The notes under the pieces are model-generated. The model was not told the DNA's origin. It did not search any database and saw only the letters and a list, made by a program, of their open reading frames with translations. From positions 1 to 35,850 of the IMG/VR virus record IMGVR_UViG_3300009702_000054: a stretch of 35,850 nt of DNA; one strand, 5' to 3'. Positions within the stretch are counted from its first letter, which is position 1. Each line of letters begins with the position of its first letter. Positions 1,640 to 27,523 of this stretch are shown here, one piece after another. A program made the translations under genes and the position numbers. This stretch comes from a virus.

Positions 1640-2211
1640 CCGCGCTCCACGACATCATCCTCGCCGACCCGCCCTGGCACTTCGGGGCGTGGTCGGGCGA
1701 CCGTGGCTCGCGCACCGCGGAGAGCTTCTACCCGACGATGACCGTCGCGGAGATCTGCGCGCTCGACCCCTTCCTGCACCAGCACACCGCGAGTCGCGCG
1801 GCGCTGTTCCTGTGGGTGCCGTGCTCCGCCACGCCCGAGGGCCTGCGGGTGATCAGCGCCTGGGGGTTCCAGTACAAGACGATCGCGTTCGTGTGGGTGA
1901 AGCTCCGCCGCCGGCCGGATCCGGACAACCCGCTCCTCTTGCACTTCGGCATGGGCCACTACACCCGCGCCGGGGCCGAGCTATGTCTCCTCGGTACCCG
2001 CGGGCAACTCCCGCGCGGCGCGCACAACGTCCACCAGGTGATCCTCGCGCCACCGCGCGAGCACTCCCGCAAGCCCGACCAACAGTACGAGCGCATCGAG
2101 GCGCTCTACCCCGGCCGGCGCTACCTTGAACTGTTCGCCCGTCACCGCCGACCCGGGTGGTCGGCGTGGGGAGACGAGGCGCCGGAAACACCCGCGGAGA
2201 TGAGCGCATGA
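1636..2211 (+). CDS. MT-A70 family DNA N6-adenine methyltransferase
   Basis: A 191-aa protein with the DPPW catalytic motif at residues 11-14, near the N-terminus as in MT-A70 enzymes, and the conserved FLWVP, FVWVK and GHYTRAGAE segments further on. Family members transfer methyl from S-adenosylmethionine to the N6 of adenine. In phages this usually protects DNA from restriction or marks phage DNA. The GTG start overlaps the previous stop. Length and motif order are complete, with no visible damage, in contrast to the Dam-type gene downstream. Target sequence unknown. Confidence 0.88.
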   Translation: MTALHDIILADPPWHFGAWSGDRGSRTAESFYPTMTVAEICALDPFLHQHTASRAALFLWVPCSATPEGLRVISAWGFQYKTIAFVWVKLRRRPDPDNPLLLHFGMGHYTRAGAELCLLGTRGQLPRGAHNVHQVILAPPREHSRKPDQQYERIEALYPGRRYLELFARHRRPGWSAWGDEAPETPAEMSA

Positions 2212-3194
2212 GCACCAACACCAAGATCGGCTGGACGGACGCCACCTGGAACCCCACCACGGGCTGCACAAAGGTCTCGCAGGGCTGCAAGCACTGCTAC
2301 GCCGAGCGCGAGTGGAAACGGCTGGCCGCCAACCCGCGCGGAGGCGTGTACCAGGGCCGCGAGTTCACAGACGTGCGCTGCCACCCGGAGCGGTTAGATC
2401 AGCCCCTCAAGTGGCGCAAGCCGAGGCGCGTGTTCGTCAACAGCATGTCCGACCTATTCCACGAGAACGTGCCGGATGAGTTCATTGACCAGGTGTTCGC
2501 CGTGATGGCACTGGCCCCGCCGCATATCTTCCAAGTACTTACGAAGCGGCCTCGCCGCATGTGGGAGTACATGATTGGTCAGCACGATATCGATGGCCTC
2601 GATGACGTGACGCGCGTCGAATGCATTCGGTTTGCCGCTCAAGATTACACCTGCACCCCCGACGAGGATGTGCGCTGGCCGCCCCCTAACATCCACCTCG
2701 GCGTGTCCTGCGAGGACCAGGCGAGCGCGAACGAGCGAATCCCGCTGCTGCTCAAGACACCCGCCGCGGTGCGCTGGGTGAGCCTGGAGCCGCTGCTCGG
2801 ACCGGTCGACATTCGGCGGTGGATCACTGACGCCGCCACCGAAACGGCGCAACGAGGCGACCCGCTCGCCGCGACGCTGATGCGCCAGTCGGTAGCGGAG
2901 GGATCTGGATGGATGGCGCCGACCCTGGACTGGTTCGTGGTCGGCGGCGAGTCCGGCCCGAAGGCGCGGCCGTGCTGTGTGGAGTGGATACGCGACGTTA
3001 TCGACCAGTGTCACGAGGCCTGGGTGCCCGTGTTCGTCAAGCAGCTCGGCGCCCGGCCGGTGCGTTGGGTGCAGGCGCCGAGCGCGGATGGATACGGAGA
3101 TTACGGACCTGAAGACGTAAAGCTCAGCAACCGCGCCGGATCCGACCCGTCCGAGTGGCCCGAGGATCTAAGGGTGCAGGAGTATCCAGCATGA
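2208..3194 (+). CDS. Gp37/Gp68 family protein (DUF5131), radical-SAM-like
   Basis: A 328-aa protein of the phage Gp37/Gp68 (DUF5131) family. The N-terminus holds the hallmark IGWTDATWNPTTGC, then GCKHCYAE, a Cys-X6-Cys-X2-Cys cluster resembling an iron-sulphur site. Further family blocks are VFVNSMSDLFHE, VLTKRP and FVVGGESGPKARP. The ATG at 2208 overlaps the methylase stop. The reaction of this family is not established; a radical-SAM-like DNA or protein modification is an inference from the cysteine pattern. It sits between a DNA methylase and small Cys-rich proteins, which fits DNA modification or protection. Confidence 0.85.
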   Translation: MSTNTKIGWTDATWNPTTGCTKVSQGCKHCYAEREWKRLAANPRGGVYQGREFTDVRCHPERLDQPLKWRKPRRVFVNSMSDLFHENVPDEFIDQVFAVMALAPPHIFQVLTKRPRRMWEYMIGQHDIDGLDDVTRVECIRFAAQDYTCTPDEDVRWPPPNIHLGVSCEDQASANERIPLLLKTPAAVRWVSLEPLLGPVDIRRWITDAATETAQRGDPLAATLMRQSVAEGSGWMAPTLDWFVVGGESGPKARPCCVEWIRDVIDQCHEAWVPVFVKQLGARPVRWVQAPSADGYGDYGPEDVKLSNRAGSDPSEWPEDLRVQEYPA

Positions 3195-8254: not shown

Positions 8255-10776
8255 TCGTTCACCGCCCGCTTGCGCTTCGCGTCTTCGGCCTTGGCCTGCT
8301 GCCGGTCCTCCTTCACCTCGGAGACAAGCTCCACGATGTACGCGTTGCGCTGGCGGTCGAGATCGAGAATGCTCGCCCGCTTCTGCTCCGGCGACAGGTC
8401 GGGATCCTCGATCGTCAGCGCCCGTTGGGTGCTGAACGCGCGGAGGGTCTTCGCGGCATCATCGAAGAGCTCGCGCTCCTGCGTGGCGCGCCTCTCCGAC
8501 AGGTTCTCGGCGATCGCGGGGCGGTTGTTCGTGACGGTGAAGTCGACCGAGTCGGCGAGCTCACGGGACGCGCGCAGCCAGTCGTAGAACGTGGTCTCGG
8601 CCTGGGTGCGCGCAGGGTGGCGCTGGATGAAGCGGCGGATGCCGGGCGCGCTCGCCCAGCTCCCCTCGGGCAGTTCGTCGCCGTAGAACACCCGGTCGGC
8701 CAGCATCAGCCCGTACATGCCCGACGTGTTGAGGTAGCCGCGGATGAGCGCGTTCGCGCGAGCCGGACTCACCTGCGCCCAGCGCGGCAGGGTCGCCGTC
8801 GCCTCGCCGAGCGCGCGTAGCGTCCGCGGGGTGTACGGCGAGTAGCGCAGCCCCGGCAGCCGCCGCTGCATCGACGGCGTCTCGATCTGCCGGTCGGTGA
8901 ACCGGTTGCGGTTGATGACGTAGGTCTCGTAGATGGGCTCGAAGCCGTAGGGGAGCCAGTCGAGCTTCATCTGGTTGGAGATGATCTGGAACGTGTGCCA
9001 GGTGAACGCGGGCACGTCGACACCCCGCCCCTTCACCCCCTCGATCACCTGCTCGGTCGCCCGCTCGGCCACCGATGTAAGCGCGCCGATCTCCCAGATC
9101 TTCGGGAACTTCAGGTGCAGATAGCCGCGCTCGACGAGGCCCTCGGCCTCGAGCGCGGTGCGCTGCTCGGCGGACATCCACCGGTCGGGCACGAACACGT
9201 GCCAGTGCCCATCCTTGTTCCAGTCCTCGAGTTCCTGATAGAGCGGGTTGTCGTCGTTCAGCCAGCGCAGGAGCGCGGAGAACACACCGAGCAGACCGGC
9301 GACCATCCACACGTGCCCGCGGTTGGCATCCTTGAACCCGGCGCGGTACACGCGGTCGATGCCGACCACCCCGGCCTTGAGGAACGGCACGGTGTCGTAC
9401 AGGAAGCCGATCACCCTCGCGTCGTCGCCGCGCATCGCGAAATCCGTGCTGATCTCGCGGGCCCTGAACGCGGCCTCGCGCGGGGTGAGCCCGCTCTTCA
9501 CGCCACGCTTGAACTCACCCAGGCGCGTCGCCTCCTCGAATGCGCCGGAGATCGTCTCGATCGCGAACAGCATCTTGCGCGGGGTATCGATCACCGTGTG
9601 CGGGTTGATGCCCTTGCTCCGGTACCAGGTGTGCAGGTGGCCGCGCAGCGCCTCGTCGTCGACCAAGTACGAGCTCATCCCGCCACCGTTCGCGATGTAG
9701 GCGCGGTAGTCGGGATCGTTACGCAGCCGCCCGGTGAGGCCCTTCATCGAGTCGAGCACCGGCTTGAAGCCGCGATCCGAGAGCGCCCAGGCGTGCAGCG
9801 TGTCGCGCCAGATGTTGGCGAGCATGAAGTCGGGGGTGAGCGTCACCGTCAACTGCCCGAAGCGGCGCATCTTGTTCAAGATCTGCACGGACTTCGCCGC
9901 CACCGGCCGGCTCAACGCCTGGAACGAGCGGTAGAGCAGCGGATCGCTGACCTGGTAGAAGTACGACTTGCCGCCGCGCAGCACCGCGACGATCTGCTCG
10001 CCGTTGCGCGGGGTCGGGTCCTGCCCGAGCAGCCAGAACTGCAGGAAGCCGTCGTTCTCCGCGGCCCACGTCTTCACGGCATTGACCGCGGGGATCAGTT
10101 CCTCGGGGATGTTGACGCCCATCTCCGCCTGTCGGCGAGAGAGCCCGAGGGACTCGTACACACGGGCAAGGATCTGGTCCTGTGAGAGCTTCACGGACTT
10201 GGCCTCGCGACCGATGGGCGTGATCCAGCGCCCGCCACCCTGCTCCTTCAGCGCGAAGTCGACGATCTGGCGGCGGGCGTCGTTCTTGAGCCCCTCGGTG
10301 ATCAGGGTCTCGGCGTTGGTCAGTATATTGGCGAGGATGTCGCGCACGTTGCCGGTGCCGCCGGTGAGCGGGGACCACACGGAGACGTTGCCCTCGATGC
10401 CCTTCTTGCGCTTGGTCGAGGTCTGCTGGCCGACCCGGTAGAACGGGAGGTACCACTCGCGGCGCCACCGCGCGCGCGCCTTCGGGTCGATCGCGCCGAG
10501 CTGCACGGCGAAGTCGACCACCCGCTTGTTCCAGCGCTGGTACCCTTCGAAGGCGCGCTCGAAGTCCGTCTTGCCGTTGGCGTCGCGCTTGCGGCCGCGG
10601 TTCAGGGCGAGCCCGGCCTCGATCTCGGAGACGGTAAAGAGGTTCTCCCGCCCCTGGCCCTTCAGCTCGTGCGCGCTCTTCGCGGTCGCCCACTGCAGGA
10701 AGTCCTCGATCTCGGGCGAGACTTCCTTGAGCACCTTCTCGAGTCCGTCGCCCTGAAAGTCGATGCTGGTAATCAC
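8251..10776 (-). CDS. giant internal virion (polyvalent) protein, C-terminal part, LPD38-type
   Basis: An 841-codon frame with the features of the large polyvalent protein domain LPD38 found in phages of this group: NMLAN-like segment (TPDFMLANIWRDTLHAW), DYRAYIANGGG, and helical stretches that reach LRALGEAT. It is in the same frame as the gene at 10783-14409 and separated from it by a single TAA and two codons. The GTG at 10776 has no clear ribosome site, and homologous proteins usually carry both halves in one chain. I therefore read it as the C-terminal part of one protein of about 2,050 aa, probably injected with the DNA. Separate translation by reinitiation at GTG is possible. Confidence 0.75.
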   Translation of the reverse strand: MITSIDFQGDGLEKVLKEVSPEIEDFLQWATAKSAHELKGQGRENLFTVSEIEAGLALNRGRKRDANGKTDFERAFEGYQRWNKRVVDFAVQLGAIDPKARARWRREWYLPFYRVGQQTSTKRKKGIEGNVSVWSPLTGGTGNVRDILANILTNAETLITEGLKNDARRQIVDFALKEQGGGRWITPIGREAKSVKLSQDQILARVYESLGLSRRQAEMGVNIPEELIPAVNAVKTWAAENDGFLQFWLLGQDPTPRNGEQIVAVLRGGKSYFYQVSDPLLYRSFQALSRPVAAKSVQILNKMRRFGQLTVTLTPDFMLANIWRDTLHAWALSDRGFKPVLDSMKGLTGRLRNDPDYRAYIANGGGMSSYLVDDEALRGHLHTWYRSKGINPHTVIDTPRKMLFAIETISGAFEEATRLGEFKRGVKSGLTPREAAFRAREISTDFAMRGDDARVIGFLYDTVPFLKAGVVGIDRVYRAGFKDANRGHVWMVAGLLGVFSALLRWLNDDNPLYQELEDWNKDGHWHVFVPDRWMSAEQRTALEAEGLVERGYLHLKFPKIWEIGALTSVAERATEQVIEGVKGRGVDVPAFTWHTFQIISNQMKLDWLPYGFEPIYETYVINRNRFTDRQIETPSMQRRLPGLRYSPYTPRTLRALGEATATLPRWAQVSPARANALIRGYLNTSGMYGLMLADRVFYGDELPEGSWASAPGIRRFIQRHPARTQAETTFYDWLRASRELADSVDFTVTNNRPAIAENLSERRATQERELFDDAAKTLRAFSTQRALTIEDPDLSPEQKRASILDLDRQRNAYIVELVSEVKEDRQQAKAEDAKRKRAVNE

Positions 10777-10782
10777 CCCGTT

Positions 10783-13700
10783 TTAATAGGTCGCGACCGG
10801 CACGCCGAACTTCACCGCGCCCTCTACCACGCTCATCGCCCCGCGGGTGAGACGCGCGGTCTGGTACGGGCCGAGGTCTTGCCCGGTGCGCGCGCCGGTG
10901 AGATCGGTCTCCATCGAGACGACACCCTGCAGATCGTCGAAGATCCGCTGCCGGGCGGCCTCGGTGCGACCGGTGAGGATGTGGTCGGTGAGCCGCTCGT
11001 TTTCCCCGCCGACCTTCGAGGCCGCCCGCGCGAGCGGGTGCTGCGCGTACCACGCGCGCATGCCCTCGCGGGCGTCGCGCAGTGCCTTGCCGTACGGGTT
11101 TTCGTTCGCAGGCAGGTTGACCCAGCGCTCCCACCGGGCGTGGAACTTCGGCGCCCGGGCCTCAGCCTCGGCCGGCTGCGTCATCCACAGCCGCACGAAC
11201 TCGGCGAAGCCCTCGTAGATCTTATTCGCGTCGTAGCTCACCTCCTTCAGCTCGGCGGAGAACTCGCGCGCGCCCTTCCCCACCAGCCACGGGCGCTTGC
11301 TCCCGCGCCGGAAACCGCCGAAGGCGCGGTCGTCGATGAGGTGCGCGATCTCGTGGGCCACCACCTCGAGGTCGCTCTTGCGCTTCACGCGCACGGCCTC
11401 GTGCTTCGGCAGGTAGAAGCCCAGGCGGCTGGCGCCCTTCACCCGGCCCTCGTAGACCGGGACCTTGAGGGCGCGCAGGAACGGCACGAGCACGTCCTCG
11501 CGGCGGATCGCCTTCGCCCGCTCCTTGCTCGAAGGCGGCGGCCCCTCGGGCACGTCGATCTGCTGCTCGACCAGGCCCGCATAGTTGCCGCCGGCGTCGG
11601 CGTTGACCGCGGCAGCGGCCATCGCGACGGGGCCGGTATCGCCCGGCTTGGCCGATGGGGGTACACTTTCCGTGGAGCCCGCCGCAGGCTGGATCGACCC
11701 GGGGGTGGTTCGCCGCCCCCGCTCCCCAGGTATCCCGGCGGGTTCCGCCGCCGGCACATCGACCCCCTGCGAGGCAGGCCTCGCCGCCGGCCCCTCCGGG
11801 ATCCGCATCGCAGCCCCGCCGCCTGAGCGTGACGCGGCCTCGGTGCCCGAACGCTTGCGCCGCTCCGCGTTCGTCTCGAGACCCGACTGCTGCTTGACGC
11901 CGCCCACGTCCTCGATGTCGCGCTGCCCCTGCGCGGGGCCGAAGAGTCCACCGGGACCGGCGTCTACGGGGGGCTGGTCGCGCCCTTCGCCGCGGGTCTG
12001 GGCGAGTTCGCGCGCACGGTCGGCGATCTGCTGCCGAGCGACCGGGACCGCGCCGAGGAGATCCCGGGGGCCGCCCTGGGCGCCGGACGCTACTGGACGG
12101 TTTTCGGCGGCTTGTGGGTTGGCTGCGGGTTCCGGAGCGGCCGGGTGAACTTGAGCTTGGGGTTCCAGCGCACCGGCCGGCCCTCCGCCTTGCGCTTGCG
12201 GATCTGATCCAGTGCCTTCTTTGCTCCGCTGTCGCTCACTGATCGCCTCCTCAAGGGCGTTGATGGTCTCGCCGTTCGACCACCCTCGGCTGGCTGCGGT
12301 TTCGAGTATACCCTCGCCGGCGCCCTCGGTCATGGTTTCAAGCCGTTCGGAGAGCTCAAGAATGCGCCGGTCGAACGTGCCCATGTCGTCGCTGTATTCG
12401 TCGTCGACGAGCTGATCGCCCGGAAGGGGATCGTTGCTGATGTCGAATGGGTCGAAGTTGAATGGGTCGGTGGCGGTATCCGCGCCCTCGTGGGTCGCCG
12501 CGTGCTCGGCGAACTGCTCTGCGATCTGGGCGTCGGGCTGCTGGTACGCTCCCTGCGCGTGCACCGGCTGGCCGCGCAGCGCGTCGTCGAGCGCCGCCAG
12601 GAGCGCGTTGCCGTCCGGGCGGCCCTGGTCGTTCACGAACTGCCCCCAGCCCATGTCGGCGAGGGTGATTGCAAGGTCGTCCGGGGTGCGGCCCTGGTTG
12701 GTGAAGATCCGGTAAATCTTCCAGCCGCGCTGCCCGAAGTGCGCCGGATCGACGCCTTCGGCTTCGGCCTCCGCGCGGTTCATACCGCCGAGCTTCGCCA
12801 CCGCGGCGAGCAGGGTGTCGTGCTTGGGATCCACGTGGCGCTCGCGGAAGTGGCGCTCGCGCGGGGTCTCCTTGGGCTGCGCAGGCTCCGCGGGAGGAGG
12901 CGCGGGCGCGGGCTCTGCCGCCGGTGTGGTGCCGCCGGACACGGCTTTCGGGCGAAGTTCGGTCGGCCGGCTCGCAGGGAATGTTGAGGAGGGCGCCGGG
13001 AAGGTTGTGGAGTGCGCCGGTTCGGCAGTCTGTATCGGTCGCCGCGCCGTAAGCTGCGCCTGCGACGGGTCGAGCAGCCGGGCCGCCACCTGGTCGGCAG
13101 GCGTCCCGGATCGCGCCTGATTGATCGAATCCGCGAACGCCTCACCGAGCTTCTCGGCGCGCGGCCGTGGAGTGACCGGGCCACCACCGAGCCCGCCGCC
13201 GATGATCGCACCGATGGCCGTCGAGGTGCCGACCCCCTCGAACGCCGGGTGGCCGGTGGCGAGGTTGCTGATCACCTGCTGCGCACCTTCCTGCCCACCC
13301 TCGACCACGGCGGCGAGCGCGCGCCGCGCGAGCTGCCCGCCCTTCTCCGCGAACAGGCCGTACCGGTTGGTAACGCCGACCAGCGCTGCGTTCTTCCAGA
13401 ACACCCCATCGGCCGCTGCGGCGGCCTCGCGCTCGGACTTCCCATCGGCGCGCGCCTGACTGTAGACGTTGCCCGCTTCGACGGCGGCCTCCATGCCGGC
13501 CGCGGCACCGGAGCCCAGCCACAGCGACATGCGCGGGGCGAGCACAGCAGCCGCCTGCGCGCCGCGGGCAATGCCAAGGCCCGGCACGAAGAACGACGCC
13601 GCCGAGCCTGCGCCCGAGGCCAACTCGTCAAGGAACGTCGGATCGGCGGGCAACAGGTTACGCGCCGCCTCGTCGACCTTGATCTGCCCCGCGCGCAGCG

Positions 13701-14409
13701 CCTCCGATCCGGTGGCGCGGGCGGCGAAGCCGAGGAGCCCCGACCCGGTCATTTCGGCGCCGGCGGCCACGTCGCGGAGCGCCCGGGCGCCGACGCCCTC
13801 TGGAGCGCCAATCCGGCGGGCGTACTGCGCGCCGGTGGGCACGGGCTCGCCGGGGCGGGCGCTTCGCCGCGCCGCGGCCTCGAGGAGCGCTTCGGTCTCC
13901 CCCTGCGGCGTGCCGGCGGCCGTCGGTGAGCCGAAGACCAGGTCGAGGGTGTTGCGCAGGTTCGACACTGGTGCAGCCGGCTCCATCCGCGGCCCCGGAC
14001 CCGGCGCGTGGGCCATCGTTCGTGCGAGCGCCCCACGCGCGGTCGCTGGCGCGACGAACGAACGCGGCGGCGGTTCGGCCGGCGCGGCGGGGATCCGCAG
14101 GGCGCGCAGCGCGTTGAGGTTGCCGGCCATGATCTGGCGCGGGTCATCAGACTCGACGGTCGCGAGCTGCCGCGGCGCGTGCAGAATACCCTGGTACGGA
14201 TACCCGAGCTCCGGCTCGTGCACCACCGGCTGTGGCTCGATCTGCGCTTCCGGCACGGTGAGAAGCCCCACCGAGCGCGCGAACGCGTCCCAGGGCACGT
14301 CCTGCCCTGTACGCCGCTGGTAGACCGCGTGCATGCCGCGGGTGAAGTCCGCGTCGCTCAGATCGTTGTACTGCGGGTAGGCAGCACGGAGTTCGGCGAG
14401 CAGCGCCAT
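10783..14409 (-). CDS. giant internal virion (polyvalent) protein, N-terminal part, with zincin domain
   Basis: A 1,208-aa protein starting MALLAELRAAYPQYNDLSD, a typical opening of podovirus internal proteins. It has a hydrophobic, Ala/Gly-rich part at about 200-330, a long Pro/Ala/Glu-rich linker, a polyvalent-type domain near 500-620 and a zinc-peptidase-like domain around 950-1080 with HEIAH at residues 1019-1023 and EGFAEF downstream. Such proteins are packed in the virion and enter the cell with the DNA to act early. The frame stops with TAA at 10783-10785 and reopens at once in the same frame (see 8251-10776). Confidence 0.8.
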   Translation of the reverse strand: MALLAELRAAYPQYNDLSDADFTRGMHAVYQRRTGQDVPWDAFARSVGLLTVPEAQIEPQPVVHEPELGYPYQGILHAPRQLATVESDDPRQIMAGNLNALRALRIPAAPAEPPPRSFVAPATARGALARTMAHAPGPGPRMEPAAPVSNLRNTLDLVFGSPTAAGTPQGETEALLEAAARRSARPGEPVPTGAQYARRIGAPEGVGARALRDVAAGAEMTGSGLLGFAARATGSEALRAGQIKVDEAARNLLPADPTFLDELASGAGSAASFFVPGLGIARGAQAAAVLAPRMSLWLGSGAAAGMEAAVEAGNVYSQARADGKSEREAAAAADGVFWKNAALVGVTNRYGLFAEKGGQLARRALAAVVEGGQEGAQQVISNLATGHPAFEGVGTSTAIGAIIGGGLGGGPVTPRPRAEKLGEAFADSINQARSGTPADQVAARLLDPSQAQLTARRPIQTAEPAHSTTFPAPSSTFPASRPTELRPKAVSGGTTPAAEPAPAPPPAEPAQPKETPRERHFRERHVDPKHDTLLAAVAKLGGMNRAEAEAEGVDPAHFGQRGWKIYRIFTNQGRTPDDLAITLADMGWGQFVNDQGRPDGNALLAALDDALRGQPVHAQGAYQQPDAQIAEQFAEHAATHEGADTATDPFNFDPFDISNDPLPGDQLVDDEYSDDMGTFDRRILELSERLETMTEGAGEGILETAASRGWSNGETINALEEAISERQRSKEGTGSDPQAQGGGPAGALEPQAQVHPAAPEPAANPQAAENRPVASGAQGGPRDLLGAVPVARQQIADRARELAQTRGEGRDQPPVDAGPGGLFGPAQGQRDIEDVGGVKQQSGLETNAERRKRSGTEAASRSGGGAAMRIPEGPAARPASQGVDVPAAEPAGIPGERGRRTTPGSIQPAAGSTESVPPSAKPGDTGPVAMAAAAVNADAGGNYAGLVEQQIDVPEGPPPSSKERAKAIRREDVLVPFLRALKVPVYEGRVKGASRLGFYLPKHEAVRVKRKSDLEVVAHEIAHLIDDRAFGGFRRGSKRPWLVGKGAREFSAELKEVSYDANKIYEGFAEFVRLWMTQPAEAEARAPKFHARWERWVNLPANENPYGKALRDAREGMRAWYAQHPLARAASKVGGENERLTDHILTGRTEAARQRIFDDLQGVVSMETDLTGARTGQDLGPYQTARLTRGAMSVVEGAVKFGVPVATY

Positions 14410-14413
14410 CGGT

Positions 14414-15424
14414 TCACGATCCCGGCGGCATCAGCACGTTGCGGAGGTTGAGCGGGTCGGCTGGGTTGGTGCCGGGCGCCGCGGGGAGGGTCGGAATCTC
14501 GATCCCGTAGTCGACCGCCGCCTGTCGCGCCGCCTGGAGGTGGCCGATTGCCCCCTGCTTGGCGCGGTAGATCTGCTCGGCGCGCGAGGCGATCGCGAGC
14601 ACGCGCTTCTGCACATCCTTGCTGATCCCGATGATCCGCTGCGTCTCCGGGTCCCAGATCCCACCGAACAGTCCTGCGGCGGCGCTCATGATCCGCCCGG
14701 CGTCGGCGCTCTTGTAGCCGGCGCCGGCCGCCCGCGCCGGCTGCCCCTTGCGCGCCAGGATGTTCCGAGCGTACTCCGCCTTCTGTTCCGGCGTGAGCCC
14801 GGCGGTTGCCGCCAGCGCGTTGAACTCGCTCGGCGCCCGCGGCGCCTGCGGGCGCGCGAGCACGTTGACCTCGCCGCTGCCCTTCTCGACCTGGTACGCG
14901 CCGCCGGCGGGCAACCCGCGATGGGTAGCCTCCTCGGCGGACAGGACGCGGTAGTGCTTCTCGGCCCCCTTCTTCACGCCCATCAGTCCGCGTCTGGCCT
15001 CATCGTCCCAGGTGCGCGGGAGAAACCCCGGCTCGACCAATCCGCCGCGCTCGAGGAGGCTGCGCACCGAGTCGTACTGCTGTTGCGTGCGCACCAGCGG
15101 CGCCACGCTCTTGACCACCCCCATGACCTCGGCGAGCTGGAGGGTCTGGTCGAGCGCGTTCAGGGGCTTCGGTTGGGGGTCCTGCATCTCCTTGTGGAGC
15201 TTGACGAGGGTGAGCGCCTCCTGTGCCTTACCGCCGCGCATCAGCAGGTCGGCGGTACGGGTCACGTCGAAGGTGCCGTCATCGTTGGCGCCGGCCGCGT
15301 AGGCGCTCGCGGTGGCCTGGCGATCGACCTGCTCGCGCGCCAGCGCGGCGCGCTTGTCGCGCAGGTAGTTCACGCTTCCGGCCGTCTTGTAGACGTCTCC
15401 GAGGTTGAAGGGTTTGAACTCCAT
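14414..15424 (-). CDS. internal virion / ejection-associated protein, unknown family
   Basis: A 336-aa protein starting MEFKPFNLGDVYKTAGSV at 15424; longer upstream frames are shadow. It is largely helical and Ala/Arg-rich, with a segment of repeated helices (about 45-180) like those in podovirus ejection proteins. It lies between the DNA-transfer protein and the giant polyvalent protein, the place where P22- and T7-like phages encode internal core proteins. The function is inferred from position and composition only. Confidence 0.6.
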   Translation of the reverse strand: MEFKPFNLGDVYKTAGSVNYLRDKRAALAREQVDRQATASAYAAGANDDGTFDVTRTADLLMRGGKAQEALTLVKLHKEMQDPQPKPLNALDQTLQLAEVMGVVKSVAPLVRTQQQYDSVRSLLERGGLVEPGFLPRTWDDEARRGLMGVKKGAEKHYRVLSAEEATHRGLPAGGAYQVEKGSGEVNVLARPQAPRAPSEFNALAATAGLTPEQKAEYARNILARKGQPARAAGAGYKSADAGRIMSAAAGLFGGIWDPETQRIIGISKDVQKRVLAIASRAEQIYRAKQGAIGHLQAARQAAVDYGIEIPTLPAAPGTNPADPLNLRNVLMPPGS

Positions 15425-15428
15425 CACG

Positions 15429-16202
15429 TCACCCCAACATCTTGTAGAGCAGGTAGTTCTGCATCCCGCCCTGCGCGGCGTTGTTGAGCGCGCTCGCCGA
15501 GCCGAGATACCCCTGCGCCATCGCATTCCCGGCGCCGAGATACCCTTGCGCCTGGGCCGCGCCGCCCTGCATCAACAGGTTGCCGACGCGCTGCCCGGTC
15601 GCGAGGCCCTGCCCGGCGATGTTTCCCGCCGTCGCCGTGGTCACGCCCGCCGAGTTGCTCGCCGCCGATTGTCCGAGACCGGCCAGGTTCGCGAGCCGGT
15701 TGTAACGATTGCCCTGCCAGTCCCGGAACCGGCCGTAGGCGGCGCCGTACTCCTGGCTCGCGAGGCCTTGGCCGAAGCGCAGGGCCTCCTTGACCGCCGG
15801 TCCCGAGAAGCGTGCGCCCTTCGCCGCGAGCGTCCGGTCGAGCTGCTGCCGGCCCTGCTCGAGACGGAACTGATAGCCGGGGTCGGCCTCGAAGTCGCTC
15901 ACCGTGAACTTGCCGGTGAGAGGGTCCATCTCGGCGTCGAGGGTGCGCAGCGCATTGACACCGGTCTCCATCCACGGCGCGATGTCGCCGCGGGCCCGCG
16001 CCTCGGCGGCGATCTGATCCTCGCGCGCGATGTCGAACTGCCGGCGCTGTTCGGCGACCGCCTCGCGCGAGGCTGCCGCCTGTACCTCCGCGGCCTGGGT
16101 GCTCGCGTTCGCCTGGGCCTTGGCGGCCTTGCTGGATGCACTCGAGCCGAGCACCCCGGACACGATGGAGCCGCCGACGATTGCCGCTACCGGGTTAGAC
16201 AT
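15429..16202 (-). CDS. DNA ejection/transfer protein of podovirus type
   Basis: A 257-aa protein. Its N-terminus is a glycine-rich hydrophobic helix (PVAAIVGGSIVSGVLGSSASS), followed by an Ala-rich helix, the conserved DPGYQFRLEQGRQQLDR block at about 108-124, and FSGPAVKEALRFGQGLAS. The C-terminal part is rich in Gly and Ala with repeated AQGYLG units. This matches DNA-transfer (ejection) proteins that leave the capsid and form a channel across the envelope. It overlaps the preceding gene by eight bases. Confidence 0.75.
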   Translation of the reverse strand: MSNPVAAIVGGSIVSGVLGSSASSKAAKAQANASTQAAEVQAAASREAVAEQRRQFDIAREDQIAAEARARGDIAPWMETGVNALRTLDAEMDPLTGKFTVSDFEADPGYQFRLEQGRQQLDRTLAAKGARFSGPAVKEALRFGQGLASQEYGAAYGRFRDWQGNRYNRLANLAGLGQSAASNSAGVTTATAGNIAGQGLATGQRVGNLLMQGGAAQAQGYLGAGNAMAQGYLGSASALNNAAQGGMQNYLLYKMLG

Positions 16203-16677
16203 GGGGGGCCTCCTTCAATTCGTCCTCGACCCGCTCCTCGTACCACCGCTGGATGGTTGGCCCGACCGAGCGCGCGTGATCCGGACCACCGACCAAGTAC
16301 GCGCAGTGCACGATCGCGCGCAGCAGGTAGGACCGGAGCATCCACGCCATCGCCCGATCGTGTGCGTCGCTGGATTTTTCGAGCGCGGTCGCATCACTCC
16401 AGTGCAGGAACAGCTCGGTCCACAACACGCGGAGTTCGTGCCGGTGCTGCTCATGGAACGGGTTGGCCGGCATGTCGACGGCCAGGATCCGAAACGCCCG
16501 CGAGATCTCCTCGTCGGTGCGCGCCTTGTCCTTGTCGATGAGATCATCGAGCAGATGCGCCACGTACACCATATCGAGCACCCAGCGCGTCGCCGCCACG
16601 TTCCCGAGCAACACCTCGTCGAGGCGCCGCACCAGCTCGCGCTCCATCTCCAAGTCGTTCTCGCGCCACCCTTTCAT
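16195..16677 (-). CDS. conserved helical phage protein, unknown
   Basis: A 160-aa protein beginning MKGWRENDLEMERELVRRL at 16677; the longer frame to 17331 is shadow. It is all-helical, with many Asp, Glu, His and Trp and no membrane helix. It lies among the tail and ejection genes, four-base overlapped with the previous gene. I do not recognise the family. A minor virion or assembly protein is likely from position. Confidence 0.55.
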   Translation of the reverse strand: MKGWRENDLEMERELVRRLDEVLLGNVAATRWVLDMVYVAHLLDDLIDKDKARTDEEISRAFRILAVDMPANPFHEQHRHELRVLWTELFLHWSDATALEKSSDAHDRAMAWMLRSYLLRAIVHCAYLVGGPDHARSVGPTIQRWYEERVEDELKEAPHV

Positions 16678-17036
16678 CGCCGGACCGCCGCCACGGTGTA
16701 GGTCTCTGCCGGCGGCGTGATGCTCCCGGCGGTGAGGTTGGCGAAGGTGAGGGCGAGGGTGCCGGTCGCGGAGACGCGCGCGCCGGTGAGCACGCATCCG
16801 GCCGTGTGCGATGGCTTGTTCACGACCACCACGTCGGAGGTGCTGAGACCCGTGACCGTGACGGTCTGCTCGCTGGTCGTGTTGGCGCCCACCGCGGTCG
16901 GGGTGACGGCCACCGAGTAGGTCCTGACGTAGGGCACCGCGTCGGTGAGCAGCGAGAACCACCGCGCCCACAGCTTCCAGGTTAGCCAGTCGCCGGCCAG
17001 CGGCTCGCGCGGCGGCGGTGCGATCCCCGGCATCAT
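16674..17036 (-). CDS. small structural-like protein with beta-rich C-terminus
   Basis: A 120-aa protein with two ATGs in a row at 17036 and 17033. The first 40 residues are Pro/Trp-rich (PPPREPLAGDWLTWKLWARW); the rest is Thr/Val/Ser-rich with regular beta pattern (SVAVTPTAVGANTTSEQTVTV). The stop of the stabilisation-protein gene overlaps the start. Probably a minor tail component. No family recognised. Confidence 0.55.
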   Translation of the reverse strand: MMPGIAPPPREPLAGDWLTWKLWARWFSLLTDAVPYVRTYSVAVTPTAVGANTTSEQTVTVTGLSTSDVVVVNKPSHTAGCVLTGARVSATGTLALTFANLTAGSITPPAETYTVAAVRR

Positions 17037-18445
17037 GAGTCGAGCACCTGCACATCGGCGTATCCGCCGAGGATGGCGACCGGGACCGGATCGGAGATCG
17101 AGATTTCGAACACGAAACCGCGCCCCACGCCAAGCCGATTCCAGATGGCGCGGGCGCCGTACTCGCCGCGCTTCCCGATCGGGCGCCACAACTCCCGTGA
17201 CCAGGTTTTCCCATCGTCGCGCGAGTAGCGCAGCATCGCTTGGGGATCCGAGCCCTGGCCGGACGTGAGCCCGACGCCGGCCTCGAACTCCACTTCGACA
17301 GAATTGACCTGGATGCGCCGCCGATCGGCATGGGAGACCGTAGTGCGCCGGGTGCGAGTGACGCTGCTCCCGTCCTCGGTGTACACGGCGGTGTCGAGTT
17401 CGTAGAGCTTCCCGGCTGTGTAGTCGCCCACGTAGTGCGCGCCGCCGAAGTAGCAATGCCCGCGCGCCCGCCAGCGCGCGAGCGACGGGCTGGTGCGTTC
17501 GTGCCATACCCCCGCCTCCACGTGGTAGATGAAGGTGCGGTTCGCCGCCGGGAAGGTCAGCACGTAGAAGGTTTGCCCGACCTGGCGGTAGACGAAGCCT
17601 TCCGCGTCGTCGGTCGCGGTGAGGCCCCCGATCTCCCACACGATGTCGTCGTCGGAAATCACCCGCGGGGTGAACCCGGAGATCATCACCACGAGCTTTC
17701 CGCCGACGTCGGTGCGGGCGAGGAAGAAGAGCGTCCCTTCGGCGAGCGCCACCGACGCCACCGCCTCGAGGCCGAGTTCGATCACCCCGTTGGCGTGACG
17801 GGTGAACGGGAAGTCGGCGGCGCCCGAGTCGTAGTAGATCTCCGTTGTGCGCGCGCCGAGCGCGTAGAGATCCTGGTGCGTGGCGGCCACGGCGAGCAGA
17901 TCGTCGGGGTCGGCCGCGGCGGAGGCGAAGTCGAGCGCGTTCCACGCGGTCGGGTCTTCGTTGGCGGAGATCGTGAATTGGTCGGAGCCCTGCGAGGCGA
18001 CGATGAAGTAGCCGTCGAGGTAAGTGACGCTGGTCGGGTTGGCCGGGAAGTCGGGGTCGGTGATCTGCGCGAACGTCACGCCGTCCCAGACGTAGCCCTT
18101 CGCGCCATCGACCAGCATCAGGTAGGCACGGCCCGCGGCGATGCTCACCCAGCCCGCCGAGGTCACCAGCGCGCCGACACTCGTCGAGGTGAGTGAGGAG
18201 TCGACCTTGTAGAGCGCGGCGCCGGCAGCCCAGTACATCGCATCACCGAACTCGACGCCGTTCGATCGCACCGCCCCCGTCGCGATACTCTTGGCCAGCG
18301 TCGTACCCGGGGTCGGGTAGAGGCTCGCAGCGTGCTTCGCCCCGGGCCCCTCCGGCACCGGGTAGAGGTTCACGCAGCGCTGCGGATTGGTGACGATCGA
18401 GCGCGCGGTGCGCTTCGGGCCGACGATGGGGAGCGGCACTCTCAT
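17033..18445 (-). CDS. packaged-DNA stabilisation / tail hub protein, P22 gp10-like
   Basis: A 470-aa protein of the phage stabilisation (P22 gp10) family, which forms part of the tail hub and plugs the portal after packaging. Recognisable blocks are TNPQRCVNLYPVPEGPGAK near the N-terminus, the beta-propeller-like middle with YLDGYFIVAS and ALGARTTEIYYDSG, and the C-terminal RPIGKRGEYGARAIWNRLG. Length is close to gp10. Neighbours are a gp4-like accessory factor and the fibre gene, as in P22 tails. Confidence 0.85.
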   Translation of the reverse strand: MRVPLPIVGPKRTARSIVTNPQRCVNLYPVPEGPGAKHAASLYPTPGTTLAKSIATGAVRSNGVEFGDAMYWAAGAALYKVDSSLTSTSVGALVTSAGWVSIAAGRAYLMLVDGAKGYVWDGVTFAQITDPDFPANPTSVTYLDGYFIVASQGSDQFTISANEDPTAWNALDFASAAADPDDLLAVAATHQDLYALGARTTEIYYDSGAADFPFTRHANGVIELGLEAVASVALAEGTLFFLARTDVGGKLVVMISGFTPRVISDDDIVWEIGGLTATDDAEGFVYRQVGQTFYVLTFPAANRTFIYHVEAGVWHERTSPSLARWRARGHCYFGGAHYVGDYTAGKLYELDTAVYTEDGSSVTRTRRTTVSHADRRRIQVNSVEVEFEAGVGLTSGQGSDPQAMLRYSRDDGKTWSRELWRPIGKRGEYGARAIWNRLGVGRGFVFEISISDPVPVAILGGYADVQVLDS

Positions 18446-18825
18446 ACCGGCTTCGGGTGCCGCGCTTTGATGGCGTCGCGCTTCGCCTTGATGGCGGTGA
18501 GCCTCGTGTGATCTCCGGCCTCGACCGCGTCGATGAGCGCGTCGAGAACGTCGCCCACCGCATTCTCGAAACCCGGCTCCGCGCCGAGGTCATGGGCGTA
18601 CTCGCGGGCGCGAGCGCGGCGGTATTCCAACTTCGCTTCGGCGTCGAGTTCTGGTGTGGTCAGCCACGTGTTGCCATCCCAGACCATGCGCACATCTGCG
18701 GGTGGGCCCGGCACCTCCAGCGCGCCCCGCGGCACGTTCGGGTGTTTGACTTCGACGCCCTTGGGGCTGCGCTTCTCGAACCCGCCCAAGTATCGGCCCG
18801 CGGCGTCCGCGTAGTACGTGGTCAT
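18442..18825 (-). CDS. tail-fibre-associated small protein (assembly chaperone-like)
   Basis: A 127-aa protein starting MTTYYADAAGRYLGGFEKR; the start overlaps the fibre gene stop (ATGA). The N-terminal 60 residues resemble short fibre-associated domains (YADAAGRYLGGF, MVWDGNTWLTTPE), and the rest is charged helices. This is the usual site and plan for a tail-fibre assembly protein. The longer frame to 18960 is shadow. Function inferred from position and composition. Confidence 0.6.
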   Translation of the reverse strand: MTTYYADAAGRYLGGFEKRSPKGVEVKHPNVPRGALEVPGPPADVRMVWDGNTWLTTPELDAEAKLEYRRARAREYAHDLGAEPGFENAVGDVLDALIDAVEAGDHTRLTAIKAKRDAIKARHPKPV

Positions 18826-20171
18826 GCGTAGGCCCTCACGATGAGCTTCCAGTTTGCGTTGGTGGTCGCCTGAATGGCGCCGGTCGTTTTGTCCAAAAGG
18901 TAAAAGGTTGTTGCGCTGGAACCGAACCGGATGTTTATATTCGTCGCATCCCAAACGCACGACGCTCCCCGAGATACGGATGCGGCGTCCAGCGCCGTGA
19001 GCACCTCGTCACCAACGGAATAGTTGTACTCGGCCGTCTTACAAACGAGCACCGCCTCCAGCACTTTGGGTTTGGCTCCTAAGCCGTGGGCGAGGGTTAG
19101 TAATCCCGCTGCGGTGATGGTCTGCTCTCCTGAGTCGTAGGACTGGGCCAGAATCATCGGCGCCCATGCGGGGTCGTTCGCCCCCATCTGGAGCACCTGC
19201 CCGCTGGTGCCCTTGGCGAGGCGAGCCGCGGCTCCCGCAGCACTCGCGATCACGATGTCGCCGCGGGTGGTGATGACATCCTGCTGCGCCGCGAGCGCCG
19301 TCCGGCCCGCGGCGGCCGTCGCGGCGGTGAGCACCGAGCGCCCGGTCGCAGTGGAGTCGCTGATCTCCGACGCCGTGTGCGTGTGCGCCGCGGGCTGATG
19401 CTCGGCCCACGCCGTGACGTTGTCGTACCAGGTGGTCCCAGGGGTCACGTCGGACGAGTGGCACCCGTAAAGCCGCAGCTTCGCGTAGCGGGCAGTCGCC
19501 GGCGGAGTCGCCGTAAAGTTCTTGTGCGTCCAGCTCGTCGGGTTGGCGGCGCTCTCGTCGTAGACCGAGGTGGTGCTGACCACCGCCTTGGCGCTGTCGT
19601 ACCAGAGCACGTCGACCACGTTGCGCACGTCGACCACCGAGCTCTTGATGTCGAACTCGACGCCGAGGTCGGTGTCCGGCGAGACCTCGAAGAAGCTCTC
19701 GCTTTCGAGGTAGCCGCCGCCGTTACCGACGCTCACGAACTTCATCGCAGCGGCGCCGTGGTTCTGATCGTTGGTGACCCGCTGGCAAGTCGCTCCGGTG
19801 TAGGTGGTGAGCGTCCATGAGTCCGGAGTGCCGTCGGCGTTGGTGTCGGTCTCGAACGATCCGTTGTCGGCCAGGTTGAAGTTGCCGAGCACGCTCGATA
19901 CCGACGGGTTAATGTTGTCCTCGGTATAGAGCGTGACGTCGGTGCTGTCCTTCACCACGACCTTGTAGCTGCCCGACAGCCAGATCGGCGCGCGCCCGTA
20001 GGCGTCGAGCACCACCGGGTTCGCGTTCGCGGTCCCGAGCGTCGAGTCGGTGTAGGTGTCCTTCGCGGTCGAGGTGCCGGGCTCGTAGAAGTAGACCTTG
20101 CCACCGGCGAGCGGCGCGCCGGCGTTGTCGAAGAGCTGCACCTCGCCGCCGAGGAAGATCGCCTTACTCAT
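18822..20171 (-). CDS. tail fibre / tailspike with P22-type head-binding domain
   Basis: A 449-aa receptor-binding protein. Residues 1-90 resemble the capsid-binding domain of P22-like spikes (GGKVYFYEPGTST, LDAYGRAPIWLSGSYKVVV). Residues 95-255 look like a carbohydrate-binding jelly-roll (NGSFETDTNADGTPDSW). A short Ala-rich trimeric linker with HTHTASEISDSTATGR follows, and then a compact beta-rich C-terminal knob. No lyase or hydrolase motif is seen, so it probably binds rather than digests surface sugar. Confidence 0.8.
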   Translation of the reverse strand: MSKAIFLGGEVQLFDNAGAPLAGGKVYFYEPGTSTAKDTYTDSTLGTANANPVVLDAYGRAPIWLSGSYKVVVKDSTDVTLYTEDNINPSVSSVLGNFNLADNGSFETDTNADGTPDSWTLTTYTGATCQRVTNDQNHGAAAMKFVSVGNGGGYLESESFFEVSPDTDLGVEFDIKSSVVDVRNVVDVLWYDSAKAVVSTTSVYDESAANPTSWTHKNFTATPPATARYAKLRLYGCHSSDVTPGTTWYDNVTAWAEHQPAAHTHTASEISDSTATGRSVLTAATAAAGRTALAAQQDVITTRGDIVIASAAGAAARLAKGTSGQVLQMGANDPAWAPMILAQSYDSGEQTITAAGLLTLAHGLGAKPKVLEAVLVCKTAEYNYSVGDEVLTALDAASVSRGASCVWDATNINIRFGSSATTFYLLDKTTGAIQATTNANWKLIVRAYA

Positions 20172-20174
20172 GGC

Positions 20175-20873
20175 CTACCCCGTGTTGATGTTGAACTGCG
20201 GCCCCGGGAGCAGCCCCTTGTCGACCGTGCTGATCGGGGGCCGGCGCGCGAAGGCGAGCCCGAGGATCGCGTTCTTCGTCGAGCGCGCCCGGGTGGCGAC
20301 GGTCACGCTCGGGTCCTTGCCGTACTCCGGGGCCAGATCGACCGCGAGGTTCCATTTCAGCGCCGGCAGGTACTCGTCGGGCACCGTGTCTTCGCTGGTG
20401 AGCGCCGCGAACGCGGTGAACGCCTTGAGGCTCTGCACGTGCAGCGTGTAGGCCTGGTCGGGAGCGAAGTCGAACTCCACCGCAACCGGGTCGGAATATT
20501 CGACGTAGATCCGCCCGGGGCGTCCCGACACGCTCTTCGATGCCATCCGCGACCACTCGCCGGCGCCCATCAGCGCCACCGGCGTGTCGGTCGCGTTCGC
20601 GTCGGAGAGGTAGGCCGTGCCGTCCTCGACCCGCACCGGAGGCGCGGCGTTCAGGGTCTCCCCGGTGCCCCAGGTGTAGGAGGCGGTACCGATGGTCAGC
20701 GCGAACGCATCCCAGGCCCGGAACGGGACGGTGAGGCCCTCGGCCTGCCAGCTCTGGAGGAGCGAGTTGAGCGCCGCGAGCCCGTCGGCGGCCTCCTCGG
20801 CGGTTGGATCGTAGCCCGCCGCGGCGACACCGATGGCGCGCAGCGCGCCGTTGATGATCGCCTGCGCCTTCAC
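20175..20873 (-). CDS. tail accessory factor, P22 gp4-like
   Basis: A 232-aa protein starting MKAQAIINGALRAIG, the typical opening of gp4-like tail accessory (head-completion) proteins, followed by LAALNSLLQSWQAEGL. These bind the portal ring after packaging and start tail assembly. Length and the location between coat and stabilisation genes agree with P22. No damage seen. Confidence 0.82.
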   Translation of the reverse strand: MKAQAIINGALRAIGVAAAGYDPTAEEAADGLAALNSLLQSWQAEGLTVPFRAWDAFALTIGTASYTWGTGETLNAAPPVRVEDGTAYLSDANATDTPVALMGAGEWSRMASKSVSGRPGRIYVEYSDPVAVEFDFAPDQAYTLHVQSLKAFTAFAALTSEDTVPDEYLPALKWNLAVDLAPEYGKDPSVTVATRARSTKNAILGLAFARRPPISTVDKGLLPGPQFNINTG

Positions 20874-20875
20874 AT

Positions 20876-21199
20876 TCAGCTTCCGGCGCCGGCCTCGAGC
20901 GCCTCGACCTCGGCGACGAGTTGCTTCACGGTGCGGCGGCGATCGATCTCGACGTCGAAGTGCTCACGCGCGTAGCGTTCGATCGCGAGCTTCTTGTCGT
21001 GCGCCGAGCCACCGAGGCTGGCGAACCAGGCGCCGAACGCGCTGGTTGGCGGGGAGTCGCCTGGCGCGGGCACCACCGATTCGGCGAACTTCGCCGGCGT
21101 GTCCACCCAGCCCTCGGCCTTCTCGGGCAACGCATCGGAGTCGAAGATCTTGCCCTCGCGAGCCTGCTCCGGGTGGTACAGATACGTCGGATGACCCAT
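20876..21199 (-). CDS. conserved short phage head-tail region protein
   Basis: A 107-aa protein with the recognisable N-terminus PTYLYHPEQAREGKIFDSD and GWVDTPAKF, found in many short phage proteins downstream of coat genes. The C-terminal 45 residues (LAIERYAREHFDVEIDRR) resemble a small helical SAP- or HeH-like domain. A strong GGAGGTGA ribosome site lies a few bases before the ATG. Function unknown. Confidence 0.65.
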   Translation of the reverse strand: MGHPTYLYHPEQAREGKIFDSDALPEKAEGWVDTPAKFAESVVPAPGDSPPTSAFGAWFASLGGSAHDKKLAIERYAREHFDVEIDRRRTVKQLVAEVEALEAGAGS

Positions 21200-21218
21200 A
21201 CGTCACCTCCGCAGATGC

Positions 21219-21242
21219 GGGGCGGGGCCGAAACCCCGCCCC
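21219..21242 (-). terminator. strong GC hairpin after the coat gene (attenuator candidate)
   Basis: A perfect 9-bp stem (GGGGCGGGG with CCCCGCCCC) and 6-base loop lies 13 bases after the coat gene stop. No T-run follows on the minus strand, so it is not a classical intrinsic terminator. It may stabilise the coat mRNA 3' end or partly reduce transcription of the tail genes. Confidence 0.5.
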
Positions 21243-21255
21243 GGGCCGGGCGGCC

Positions 21256-22461
21256 TCAGTTGTTGGCGATGCGGGCCGCGAGCGCCCCGCGCAACGTCTT
21301 GAACCCGTACAGCACGTCGAGGCGGCACGGGAACTTGTCGTTGTTGATGTCGTAGGCGCGCACGATCCGCATCGAGATCCCGTCGTAGACCTCGCGCGAG
21401 GCGAAGTCGACGCCCTTCGGCATCACCAGGTCGGCGGTCGCGAACGCGAACGCCTCCTTGTGGTGCGCGAGCGAGATCCCGTGGGCGGCGCCCGACGTGC
21501 CGACCACGGTGATCGCCGCGTTGTCGGCCGGCGAGCCGGTCACGTTCTGCTTCGCCCCGGTGGTCACGATCGACGGGGAAATCGCCAGCGTCGCCGGGCC
21601 GGTCGTCGCACCCGAGTCCGCGTCGGCGGTGACCACGAACTGCTGCAGCACACCTGTGTCGGCCTTGGTCTCCGGGTGGACCCGGTTGACGCCGGCGATG
21701 GTGAACACGTCGCCCTGCAACAGAATTCCGGTGGTGCTGTTCGTCCAGCCGTCGGTGATCAGCGACGCGCCGGTCTGGTAGGCGCCGTTGACGAGCGGCG
21801 TGCCCGTCTTGACGCCCACGGTATGCGACGGCACCAGCGTGGTCTCGTAGATCTCCCCGAAGCCCGCGGTGCGGCCGACGAGGCCCTCGCGGTATTGCTT
21901 GGCGATCTGGGTGCTGTCCTGGAACAGTCCCTTCAAGGCATCCACGAGATCGACGTTGTCCTGCGTGTTCAGGCACAGGCAGCGCTGGCCGTAAGGGGCC
22001 AGGTTGTCGGTCAGGAGCTTGCGGGCCGCCATCAGCTTGGCGAAGGTCGCCGCGCTGCCGACGTTGTTCGCCTGGTTGTACACGTCCTTGTACATCGAGA
22101 ACGCATCGGCCTCGATGGTCGCGGCGAGCACCGCCATCGCCGGCTCGATGATCCTCTTCGAGAAGTCGTCGAGTGACATCGTGAGATCGACGGAGGTGAA
22201 GTTGAGATCGACACCCTTCTGGGTGGCGACCTGCAGCGTGGTGGTCGACTCGGTGGTGTCCTGGGTCGACAGGGTGGCGCCGGTGCGAACCACGTATTGG
22301 TTCGGGAGCCGGATCTGGAGCGAGTCGCCGATCTTCGCGCCACTCTTGGCGAAGCGATCGTCGTACTCGCGGACGATGGAACCGACGAAAGTGAGTTTCT
22401 GGTGGAGGATCCGGAGCGCCTCCCGCGTCACCGCCGTTGGCGTGATCAGGGTGTTGGCCAT
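21256..22461 (-). CDS. major capsid protein, P22 gp5-like coat
   Basis: A 401-aa coat protein of the P22 family (HK97 fold with an inserted domain). Typical features are the N-terminal helix TREALRILHQKLTFVGSIVREYDDRF, the KIGDSLQIRLPNQYVVRTG segment, and a beta-rich middle and C-terminal GFKTLRGALAARIANN. Length is close to P22 gp5 (430 aa). The scaffold gene lies upstream and the portal before it, as expected. It should form the T=7 shell with the scaffold. Confidence 0.9.
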   Translation of the reverse strand: MANTLITPTAVTREALRILHQKLTFVGSIVREYDDRFAKSGAKIGDSLQIRLPNQYVVRTGATLSTQDTTESTTTLQVATQKGVDLNFTSVDLTMSLDDFSKRIIEPAMAVLAATIEADAFSMYKDVYNQANNVGSAATFAKLMAARKLLTDNLAPYGQRCLCLNTQDNVDLVDALKGLFQDSTQIAKQYREGLVGRTAGFGEIYETTLVPSHTVGVKTGTPLVNGAYQTGASLITDGWTNSTTGILLQGDVFTIAGVNRVHPETKADTGVLQQFVVTADADSGATTGPATLAISPSIVTTGAKQNVTGSPADNAAITVVGTSGAAHGISLAHHKEAFAFATADLVMPKGVDFASREVYDGISMRIVRAYDINNDKFPCRLDVLYGFKTLRGALAARIANN

Positions 22462-22473
22462 TTGAGGTCTACC

Positions 22474-23400
22474 TCATCGCTTGGTGAGTGCCCCGTTCCT
22501 CCACCGCATCCAGTCGTCGGTGGTCATGCGCTCGGGATTCGGCACACCGCCGCGCCCGGCCGAGCTCACTGGCTCGATCACGGGCGCGGCGCTCGCCGGC
22601 CCCGGGCCGGATGGTACGCTCGCCTGCTGTTCCACAGGTGGCGCAGCGGGAGACAATCCCCTCGTCGCGGACACCTGACCGATGGCGAGGGCAATGCTCA
22701 CGGGGTCGGGGAGCGAGGCGATCTCGGCACAGACCTCGGGGTGCGCCGCCAGGTAGTAGGCGACCTCCGCACCGTCCTCGGCCCGCATCAGCACGTCGGC
22801 CATCGGAGCCGTGATCGGCAACGCCGGGTCGAGCACCTTCTGCTCGAAGTCCGGGTGCCTGGTCTTGACGTCCGCTACCTGCTCTGCCCATGCGTCCGTC
22901 GCGGCGGTGTGCTCGGCCTGCGCGCGGATCTCGTCGAGATCCGGTGCTTCGCCAGCCTCGGCGTCGCTTGCCGAGCGCTCTGCCGCGAGCCTCTGCTCCA
23001 CTCGGTGCGAGACCAGGGCGTCGACGTATTCCTCGTAGGTTCCGAAGTCCTCCTGTCGGGGTTCCGGCTTCGCGGGAGTCGCCGCGGCCTCGGCCCGTTT
23101 CAGTGCGGTTTCGGCAGCCTTTTGGAGCGCGTCACGCGCGGTCTCGGCAGCCTTGAGCTTGCCCTTCAGCCTGCGGATGAGTTTCGCGGTATCGCCTTTC
23201 TGGTGATCAGTCTGGCGATCCGAATCGGCCTCTCCATCGCCGTCCGGCTTTGCGGCGCCGGCCTGGCCTGTCGCGCTGGGCGCGTCCGACGTTTCGCCCG
23301 GGGAGGGATCAGCCGTCGGAAGGCTGGCGAGCTCTTCGGGGGGCGCCCCGGCCTCCGTGGCCTGGGCGTTCGCGTCGCTCGCGGTGTCGTTGGGATCCAT
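22474..23400 (-). CDS. scaffolding protein
   Basis: A 308-aa highly charged, Ala/Pro/Glu-rich protein. The disordered N-terminus (1-70) is followed by a coiled coil (75-115), the EDFGTYEEYVDALVSHRVEQRL segment common in podovirus scaffolds, helices, and a short C-terminal MTTDDWMRWRNGALTKR, the coat-binding helix-turn-helix-like tail. It assembles the procapsid and leaves during packaging. Position between portal and coat supports this. Confidence 0.82.
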   Translation of the reverse strand: MDPNDTASDANAQATEAGAPPEELASLPTADPSPGETSDAPSATGQAGAAKPDGDGEADSDRQTDHQKGDTAKLIRRLKGKLKAAETARDALQKAAETALKRAEAAATPAKPEPRQEDFGTYEEYVDALVSHRVEQRLAAERSASDAEAGEAPDLDEIRAQAEHTAATDAWAEQVADVKTRHPDFEQKVLDPALPITAPMADVLMRAEDGAEVAYYLAAHPEVCAEIASLPDPVSIALAIGQVSATRGLSPAAPPVEQQASVPSGPGPASAAPVIEPVSSAGRGGVPNPERMTTDDWMRWRNGALTKR

Positions 23401-23424
23401 TGTAGTAGTCCTCGTGGGTGAAAT

Positions 23425-26774: not shown

Positions 26775-27261
26775 CGTCGCTCGTCAGCATGAGCGGGATC
26801 GGGCCTCCGCCAGGCCCCGTGTGCTCGTGGCGCTCGCGGAACTTCTCGGGGCGGTGACCTTTGAGCAGGATCTCGAGCATCCGATCGCTGTACTTCTTGA
26901 TGCCGCCGCAGACCTGCCCCTGGTGGTAGACGGGCTCAACCACACCGTCGACCGCGCGCCGACGCGCCTCCTCTTCGAGCGCATCGGTCGCCTCCTCGAT
27001 CGCGTCGTCCCAGGCTTGCGCGAAATCGTCGTGGACGTCGCGGTAGTCGTACGCCGCGCGCCGCGACCACCCGACCGCCCGCGCCGCGGCCGACACGTTC
27101 CCCGTGAAACGCAGCCCCTCGATGAAGCCCTCGCGCTTCGCGCGCGCGCGATCAGCGCGTATTGTGCGAAGGGGTTTCCGCTTCGATGCGGTCTTCTTTC
27201 GCACCGCCGCTTTCTTGCGCGCCGGGGCCTTCGCGCGCGTGTGGGTTGTCGCACCTGTCAC
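26761..27261 (-). CDS. terS: terminase small subunit
   Basis: A 166-aa DNA-binding packaging protein. After a Lys/Arg-rich head (residues 8-40) comes an HTH region (FIEGLRFTGNVSAAARAVGWSRRAAYDYRDV) and an oligomerisation helix (DDAIEEATDALEEEARRRAVDG). The GTG start at 27261 overlaps the stop of the previous gene and has a GGAGG-type ribosome site about ten bases upstream. The 14-base overlap with terL and gene order support the assignment. Confidence 0.82.
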   Translation of the reverse strand: MTGATTHTRAKAPARKKAAVRKKTASKRKPLRTIRADRARAKREGFIEGLRFTGNVSAAARAVGWSRRAAYDYRDVHDDFAQAWDDAIEEATDALEEEARRRAVDGVVEPVYHQGQVCGGIKKYSDRMLEILLKGHRPEKFRERHEHTGPGGGPIPLMLTSDDAEL

Positions 27262-27482
27262 GGAGTCACCCCCCTCCTCCGATACGCCTCCCACTGGTAC
27301 TCGCTGCGGATATAGGCGAGCACCAGCCGGCGGCATCCCCCGCGGCGGTATCCGGCGACCTCGCGCGGGACCCGTCGGATCACCGCGAGCAGCTCGGCCA
27401 CGGTCGGGTTGACGCGCGGCAGGCGATCCCAGGCCCAGATCGCCCAATGCCGCGCGCGCCAGCTCGCGCGATCCGGCGGCAA
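27258..27482 (-). CDS. small basic protein before terminase, TTG start
   Basis: A 74-aa basic protein. The TTG at 27482 is chosen because GGGAGGGG lies nine bases before it; the longer frame to 27578 runs over the previous gene and is low-complexity. The helix VNPTVAELLAVIRRVPREVA and the YIRSEYQWEAYRRRG end look folded. The stop overlaps the terS start. No family recognised. Part of the ribosome site lies in a hairpin (27495-27523). Confidence 0.45.
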   Translation of the reverse strand: MPPDRASWRARHWAIWAWDRLPRVNPTVAELLAVIRRVPREVAGYRRGGCRRLVLAYIRSEYQWEAYRRRGVTP

Positions 27483-27494
27483 CGCGCTCGACCC

Positions 27495-27523
27495 CTCCCG
27501 GCGCCCATCGGCGGCGCCGGGAG
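27495..27523 (-). promoter_or_regulatory. 11-bp hairpin overlapping the ribosome site of the TTG-start gene
   Basis: A perfect inverted repeat of 11 bp (arms CTCCCGGCGCC and its complement) with a 7-base loop lies between the GapR-like stop and the TTG start at 27482. The arm nearer the gene contains the first half of its GGGAGGGG ribosome site, so folding should reduce initiation. No T-run follows, so it is not a standard terminator. Confidence 0.5.

Follow-up and report, generated by a model that had tools for sequence, protein, structure and literature searches.

A single in-frame TAA divides a long phage gene

The window analyzed here is an IMG/VR virus record of 35,850 bases with a G+C content of 68%. 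On its minus strand, a 1,208-aa open reading frame that starts at an ATG (14409-10783) ends at a TAA (10785-10783), after which the same frame stays open for a further 843 codons (10782-8251). The codons that follow the stop read AAC GGG GTG, and the GTG—the third codon after the stop (10776-10774, minus strand)—is a candidate site of reinitiation that would yield an 841-aa product (10776-8251). The first-pass annotation had described two same-frame reading frames that are separated by the TAA plus two codons, the second lacking a ribosome site. Both observations were confirmed on the minus strand: the GTG shows no Shine-Dalgarno pairing, with a ribosome-site energy of +0.4 kcal/mol. Across the 2,052 codons of the joined frame, the TAA is the only in-frame stop. 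It is contained in TATTAAAA (10781-10788), the only A/T run of at least seven bases in the 6.2-kb gene; by our own estimate, composition predicts about half of one such run, and we draw nothing from it.

The gene product is a phage polyvalent protein with a zincin-like metallopeptidase motif upstream of the stop and an LPD38 domain downstream. LPD38 (PF18857; 8647-9243, minus strand; E-values of 2.7e-25 and 4.5e-28) occupies residues 514-712 of the 843 in the part after the stop and scores 90 bits against a Pfam cut-off of 27. The putative metallopeptidase core (11197-11355, minus strand) comprises HEIAH (11355-11341) followed by EGFAEF (11214-11197), fewer than 200 codons from the stop, and both HExxH and EGFAEF are conserved across the aligned homologs. 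Although Pfam gives no match at this region for the window protein, some homologs weakly match MPTase-PolyVal and other zinc peptidases. A fold search against solved structures returned no significant match; its best weak matches, covering only ~140 columns, were zinc peptidases of the zincin fold, in line with the peptidase part. Motif and weak matches among relatives together suggest that LPD38 is fused to a zincin-like metallopeptidase (HExxH plus Glu). In polyvalent proteins of this kind, the MPTase has been proposed to cut the chain into units (Iyer et al. 2017, PMC5512222).

The gene lies among virion genes of a circular-looking record

Around the interrupted gene, and on the same strand, lie genes of the terminase, portal, scaffold, capsid, head-closure and DNA-ejection type. 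This neighborhood was confirmed, with the head-closure, capsid, scaffold, portal and terminase genes all upstream of the polyvalent protein gene, and it fits a protein that is loaded into the virion and expelled together with the DNA, which is probably the role of this one. The record further encodes an integrase and an S24-type repressor, which makes a temperate lifestyle probable for this podovirus-like phage. Its sole tRNA gene is a tRNA-Met (CAT) at 30149-30223, and a 345-aa protein (2157-3194) very strongly matches DUF5131 (E-value of 6e-82).

The record has no end repeat. However, a RecE-like (YqaJ) exonuclease is found in two pieces at the contig ends (35182-35850 and 1-300), which are in frame across the ends, have continuous profile coordinates and score 182 bits when joined as opposed to 150 and 28 bits separately. 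This arrangement gives the record the look of a circular genome opened inside a gene rather than of a prophage trimmed from a chromosome, and the genome is probably complete despite the missing repeat. Its other genes look intact, and the combination of a circular-looking record and intact head genes suggests DNA of a recently active phage.

The stop is absent from homologs that cross the site

To collect homologous segments that cross the position of the stop, we used a 643-residue read-through probe. Homologs came from phage isolates, IMG/VR contigs, Sneathiella prophages and a Kiloniellaceae MAG, with about 90 loci added by two IMG/VR scans and one bacterial-genome scan. None of 90 non-identical segments carries a stop at the site. 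With the C-terminal part as tblastn query, 51 phage records were matched (30 of them over at least 80% of that part), and homology of this part to single-chain phage proteins runs along its length: in each of nine annotated phage regions that we fetched, the match fell within a single long CDS. These results bear out the earlier claim that homologs carry both parts on one chain. The converse pattern—relatives that encode the parts separately with a conserved stop—had been set beforehand as the outcome that would speak against an interruption, and was found in none of the 90.

The frame is open at the site in each of the six nearest homologs (about 40-46% identity): an IMG/VR locus (L011, IMGVR_UViG_3300026519_000042), a Kiloniellaceae MAG contig (L171), a Sneathiella prophage (L172) and three further loci (L174, L175 and L190). 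The closest relative sampled is about 46-47% identical, the latter value applying to the join region; relatives this distant set no bound on the age of the stop. Only two homologs (L060 and L077) are split at all, and they are broken about 70 codons upstream of the site, where a rearrangement (around 8752) has replaced the upstream part of the gene with unrelated sequence; both are prophage-type remnants. As far as these sequence comparisons go, the stop occurs in this record alone among all the sequences sampled.

Searches for closer relatives came back empty. IMG/VR yielded none with either half of the protein, a search with the junction DNA, the stop position left free, hit no other viral contig, and megablast against phages and tblastn against plasmids gave no matches. 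The 61, 25 and 385 genomes examined around two bacterial matches contained only more distant homologs, all of them without internal stops. For the head genes, we found capsid relatives of up to 72% identity and portal relatives of up to 41%. None of the 31 records reached through capsid or portal matched either half of the polyvalent protein, an empty answer that is itself weak. Given these capsid and portal relatives without a polyvalent match, the ejection-type gene may be an exchangeable module (region 14409-27500).

The stop maps to the turn of a predicted hairpin

An AlphaFold2 model of the read-through region (m0a8cf5129dd0), built from 38 aligned sequences with the phage-collection loci left out, reached a pLDDT of about 86-93 around the stop and of 80.7 overall. 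It places the stop codon at the turn of a predicted beta-hairpin (10753-10803, minus strand; strands 237-243 and 246-253) that is flanked by helices 215-234 and 257-285 and forms with them one confidently predicted domain. In the alignment, FGVPVATY-stop-NGVITS of the window stands opposite FGVPVWDNTEG-VAKIS of one homolog (L036). The stop thus substitutes for a single residue, and the hairpin keeps a near-normal length, that of L011 being longer there. By this model, the break is inside one domain and not at a domain boundary, though at a turn of variable length.

Origin of the interruption

Taken together, the data argue for a recent, non-programmed event in an ordinary single-chain gene—either a nonsense mutation or a wrong base in the assembly consensus—which we regard as the probable explanation. 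The gene would encode an ordinary polyvalent protein, one internal codon of which now reads TAA in this contig, through a mutation carried by this phage or by most of the sampled population, or through a consensus error. If the stop is real, most ribosomes would terminate behind the metallopeptidase part, giving a 1,208-aa product without LPD38. We infer both the non-programmed nature of the stop and this effect. A lesion or consensus error is favored because none of the 90 non-identical homologs carries the stop and the six nearest are all open, because the alignment runs straight through with the stop in place of one residue, and because the hairpin and its flanking helices form a single confidently predicted domain. 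Absence from relatives is also what marks a derived stop in a pseudogene or lesion. Departures from family-invariant residues number 27 of 182 downstream of the stop and 6 of 57 upstream, a difference too small to indicate decay. This leaves three possibilities: a recent event, an error in the sequence at this position, or a downstream part that is still made. Against a lesion, a complete-looking circular record with intact genes may represent an active phage, for which the loss of an intact ejection protein would come at a high cost, and the break falls at the variable-length turn, where a split is structurally easiest to tolerate. The circular appearance makes old decay a less weighty option, and a consensus error, a mutation in a minor population or a tolerated split weightier ones.

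A tolerated split would mean that translation stops at the TAA and reinitiates at the GTG six bases downstream, releasing the 841-aa LPD38 part as a separate protein. The two parts would then come together again or work separately, processing into units having in any case been proposed for polyvalent proteins. The in-frame GTG three codons after the stop, the undecayed frame behind it and the otherwise intact-looking phage speak for this, as does a break that falls at a hairpin turn of variable length and leaves the metallopeptidase, the proposed processing enzyme (PMC5512222), upstream and LPD38 downstream. However, the site is unsplit in every relative—the two rearranged remnants are broken elsewhere—and in the model the C-terminal part would begin in the middle of the hairpin. 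In addition, the ribosome-site energy of the GTG compares poorly with the median of −2.9 kcal/mol of random sites in the window, although several other genes in the window likewise score weakly. For reinitiation near a stop, a ribosome site is not strictly required, so the GTG could still serve as a start. On balance we consider a real split unlikely. Its fullest form, an active phage whose single-chain ejection protein is now made in two pieces through a stop at the hairpin turn, with the LPD38 part reinitiated without a ribosome site, strikes us as distinctly unlikely; if true, the split would replace or anticipate proteolytic processing by the linked metallopeptidase.

Programmed read-through, which would give a short and a long product, is a poor candidate and in our judgment very improbable. 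The frame is the same on either side and the long product would equal the normal homolog, yet the stop is UAA, reported as the least leaky of the stop codons in bacteria (PMC5289835), the next base is A, and no relative out of 90 conserves it. Nor does the RNA around the stop fold better than shuffled sequences (z of 0.15), and a suppressor tRNA is absent, tRNA-Met being the only tRNA of the record. Decoding of TAA as an amino acid by phage or host would account for the replacement of a single codon, but there is only this one in-frame TAA in 2,052 codons, a 378-aa gene (16195-17331) ends at a TAA where its family profile ends, and TAG and TGA end genes in the record as well; with all three stops terminating genes, recoding is excluded for practical purposes. 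Two long adjoining frames might also be listed as an ordinary conserved gene pair, a reading that retains next to no probability with no split at the site in any of the 90 homologs and one CDS in each of the nine annotated phage regions. Of the three options that the first-pass annotation had proposed, the lesion—widened to include a consensus error—is the one retained. Read-through is made unlikely by the use of an unshared UAA with no RNA structure above background and no suppressor tRNA, and the split is left with a possible reinitiation at the GTG, weakened by its mid-hairpin start and missing ribosome site.

Relation to known polyvalent proteins

On sequence comparison, the locus is an interrupted copy of an LPD38 polyvalent protein gene, the chain being uninterrupted in all 90 relatives. 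It resembles the described LPD38 proteins (PF18857; Iyer et al. 2017, PMC5512222) in carrying LPD38 in its C-terminal part and a zincin-like motif upstream, in its location among virion genes and in its total size of about 2,000 aa, and differs from them in the TAA between metallopeptidase and LPD38. The loci L011, L171 and L172 (the latter from Sneathiella chungangensis) are about 41-46% identical to it on both sides of the break, but have a single open frame across the site and a different hairpin length. More distant are the large proteins of Vibrio phage VvAW1 and Thalassomonas phage BA3, whose match to the window protein, at 26-29% identity, crosses the join and extends almost to the C-terminus; unlike the window protein, they are uninterrupted and about 2,630 aa or longer.

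What we describe is thus a known protein family with an interrupted copy in one metagenomic contig, and a caution for annotation, which would report a pair of genes in place of the family's single one. A functional split, if demonstrated, would imply that a giant ejected protein tolerates synthesis as two polypeptides, and would indicate where the metallopeptidase and LPD38 parts are able to work independently.
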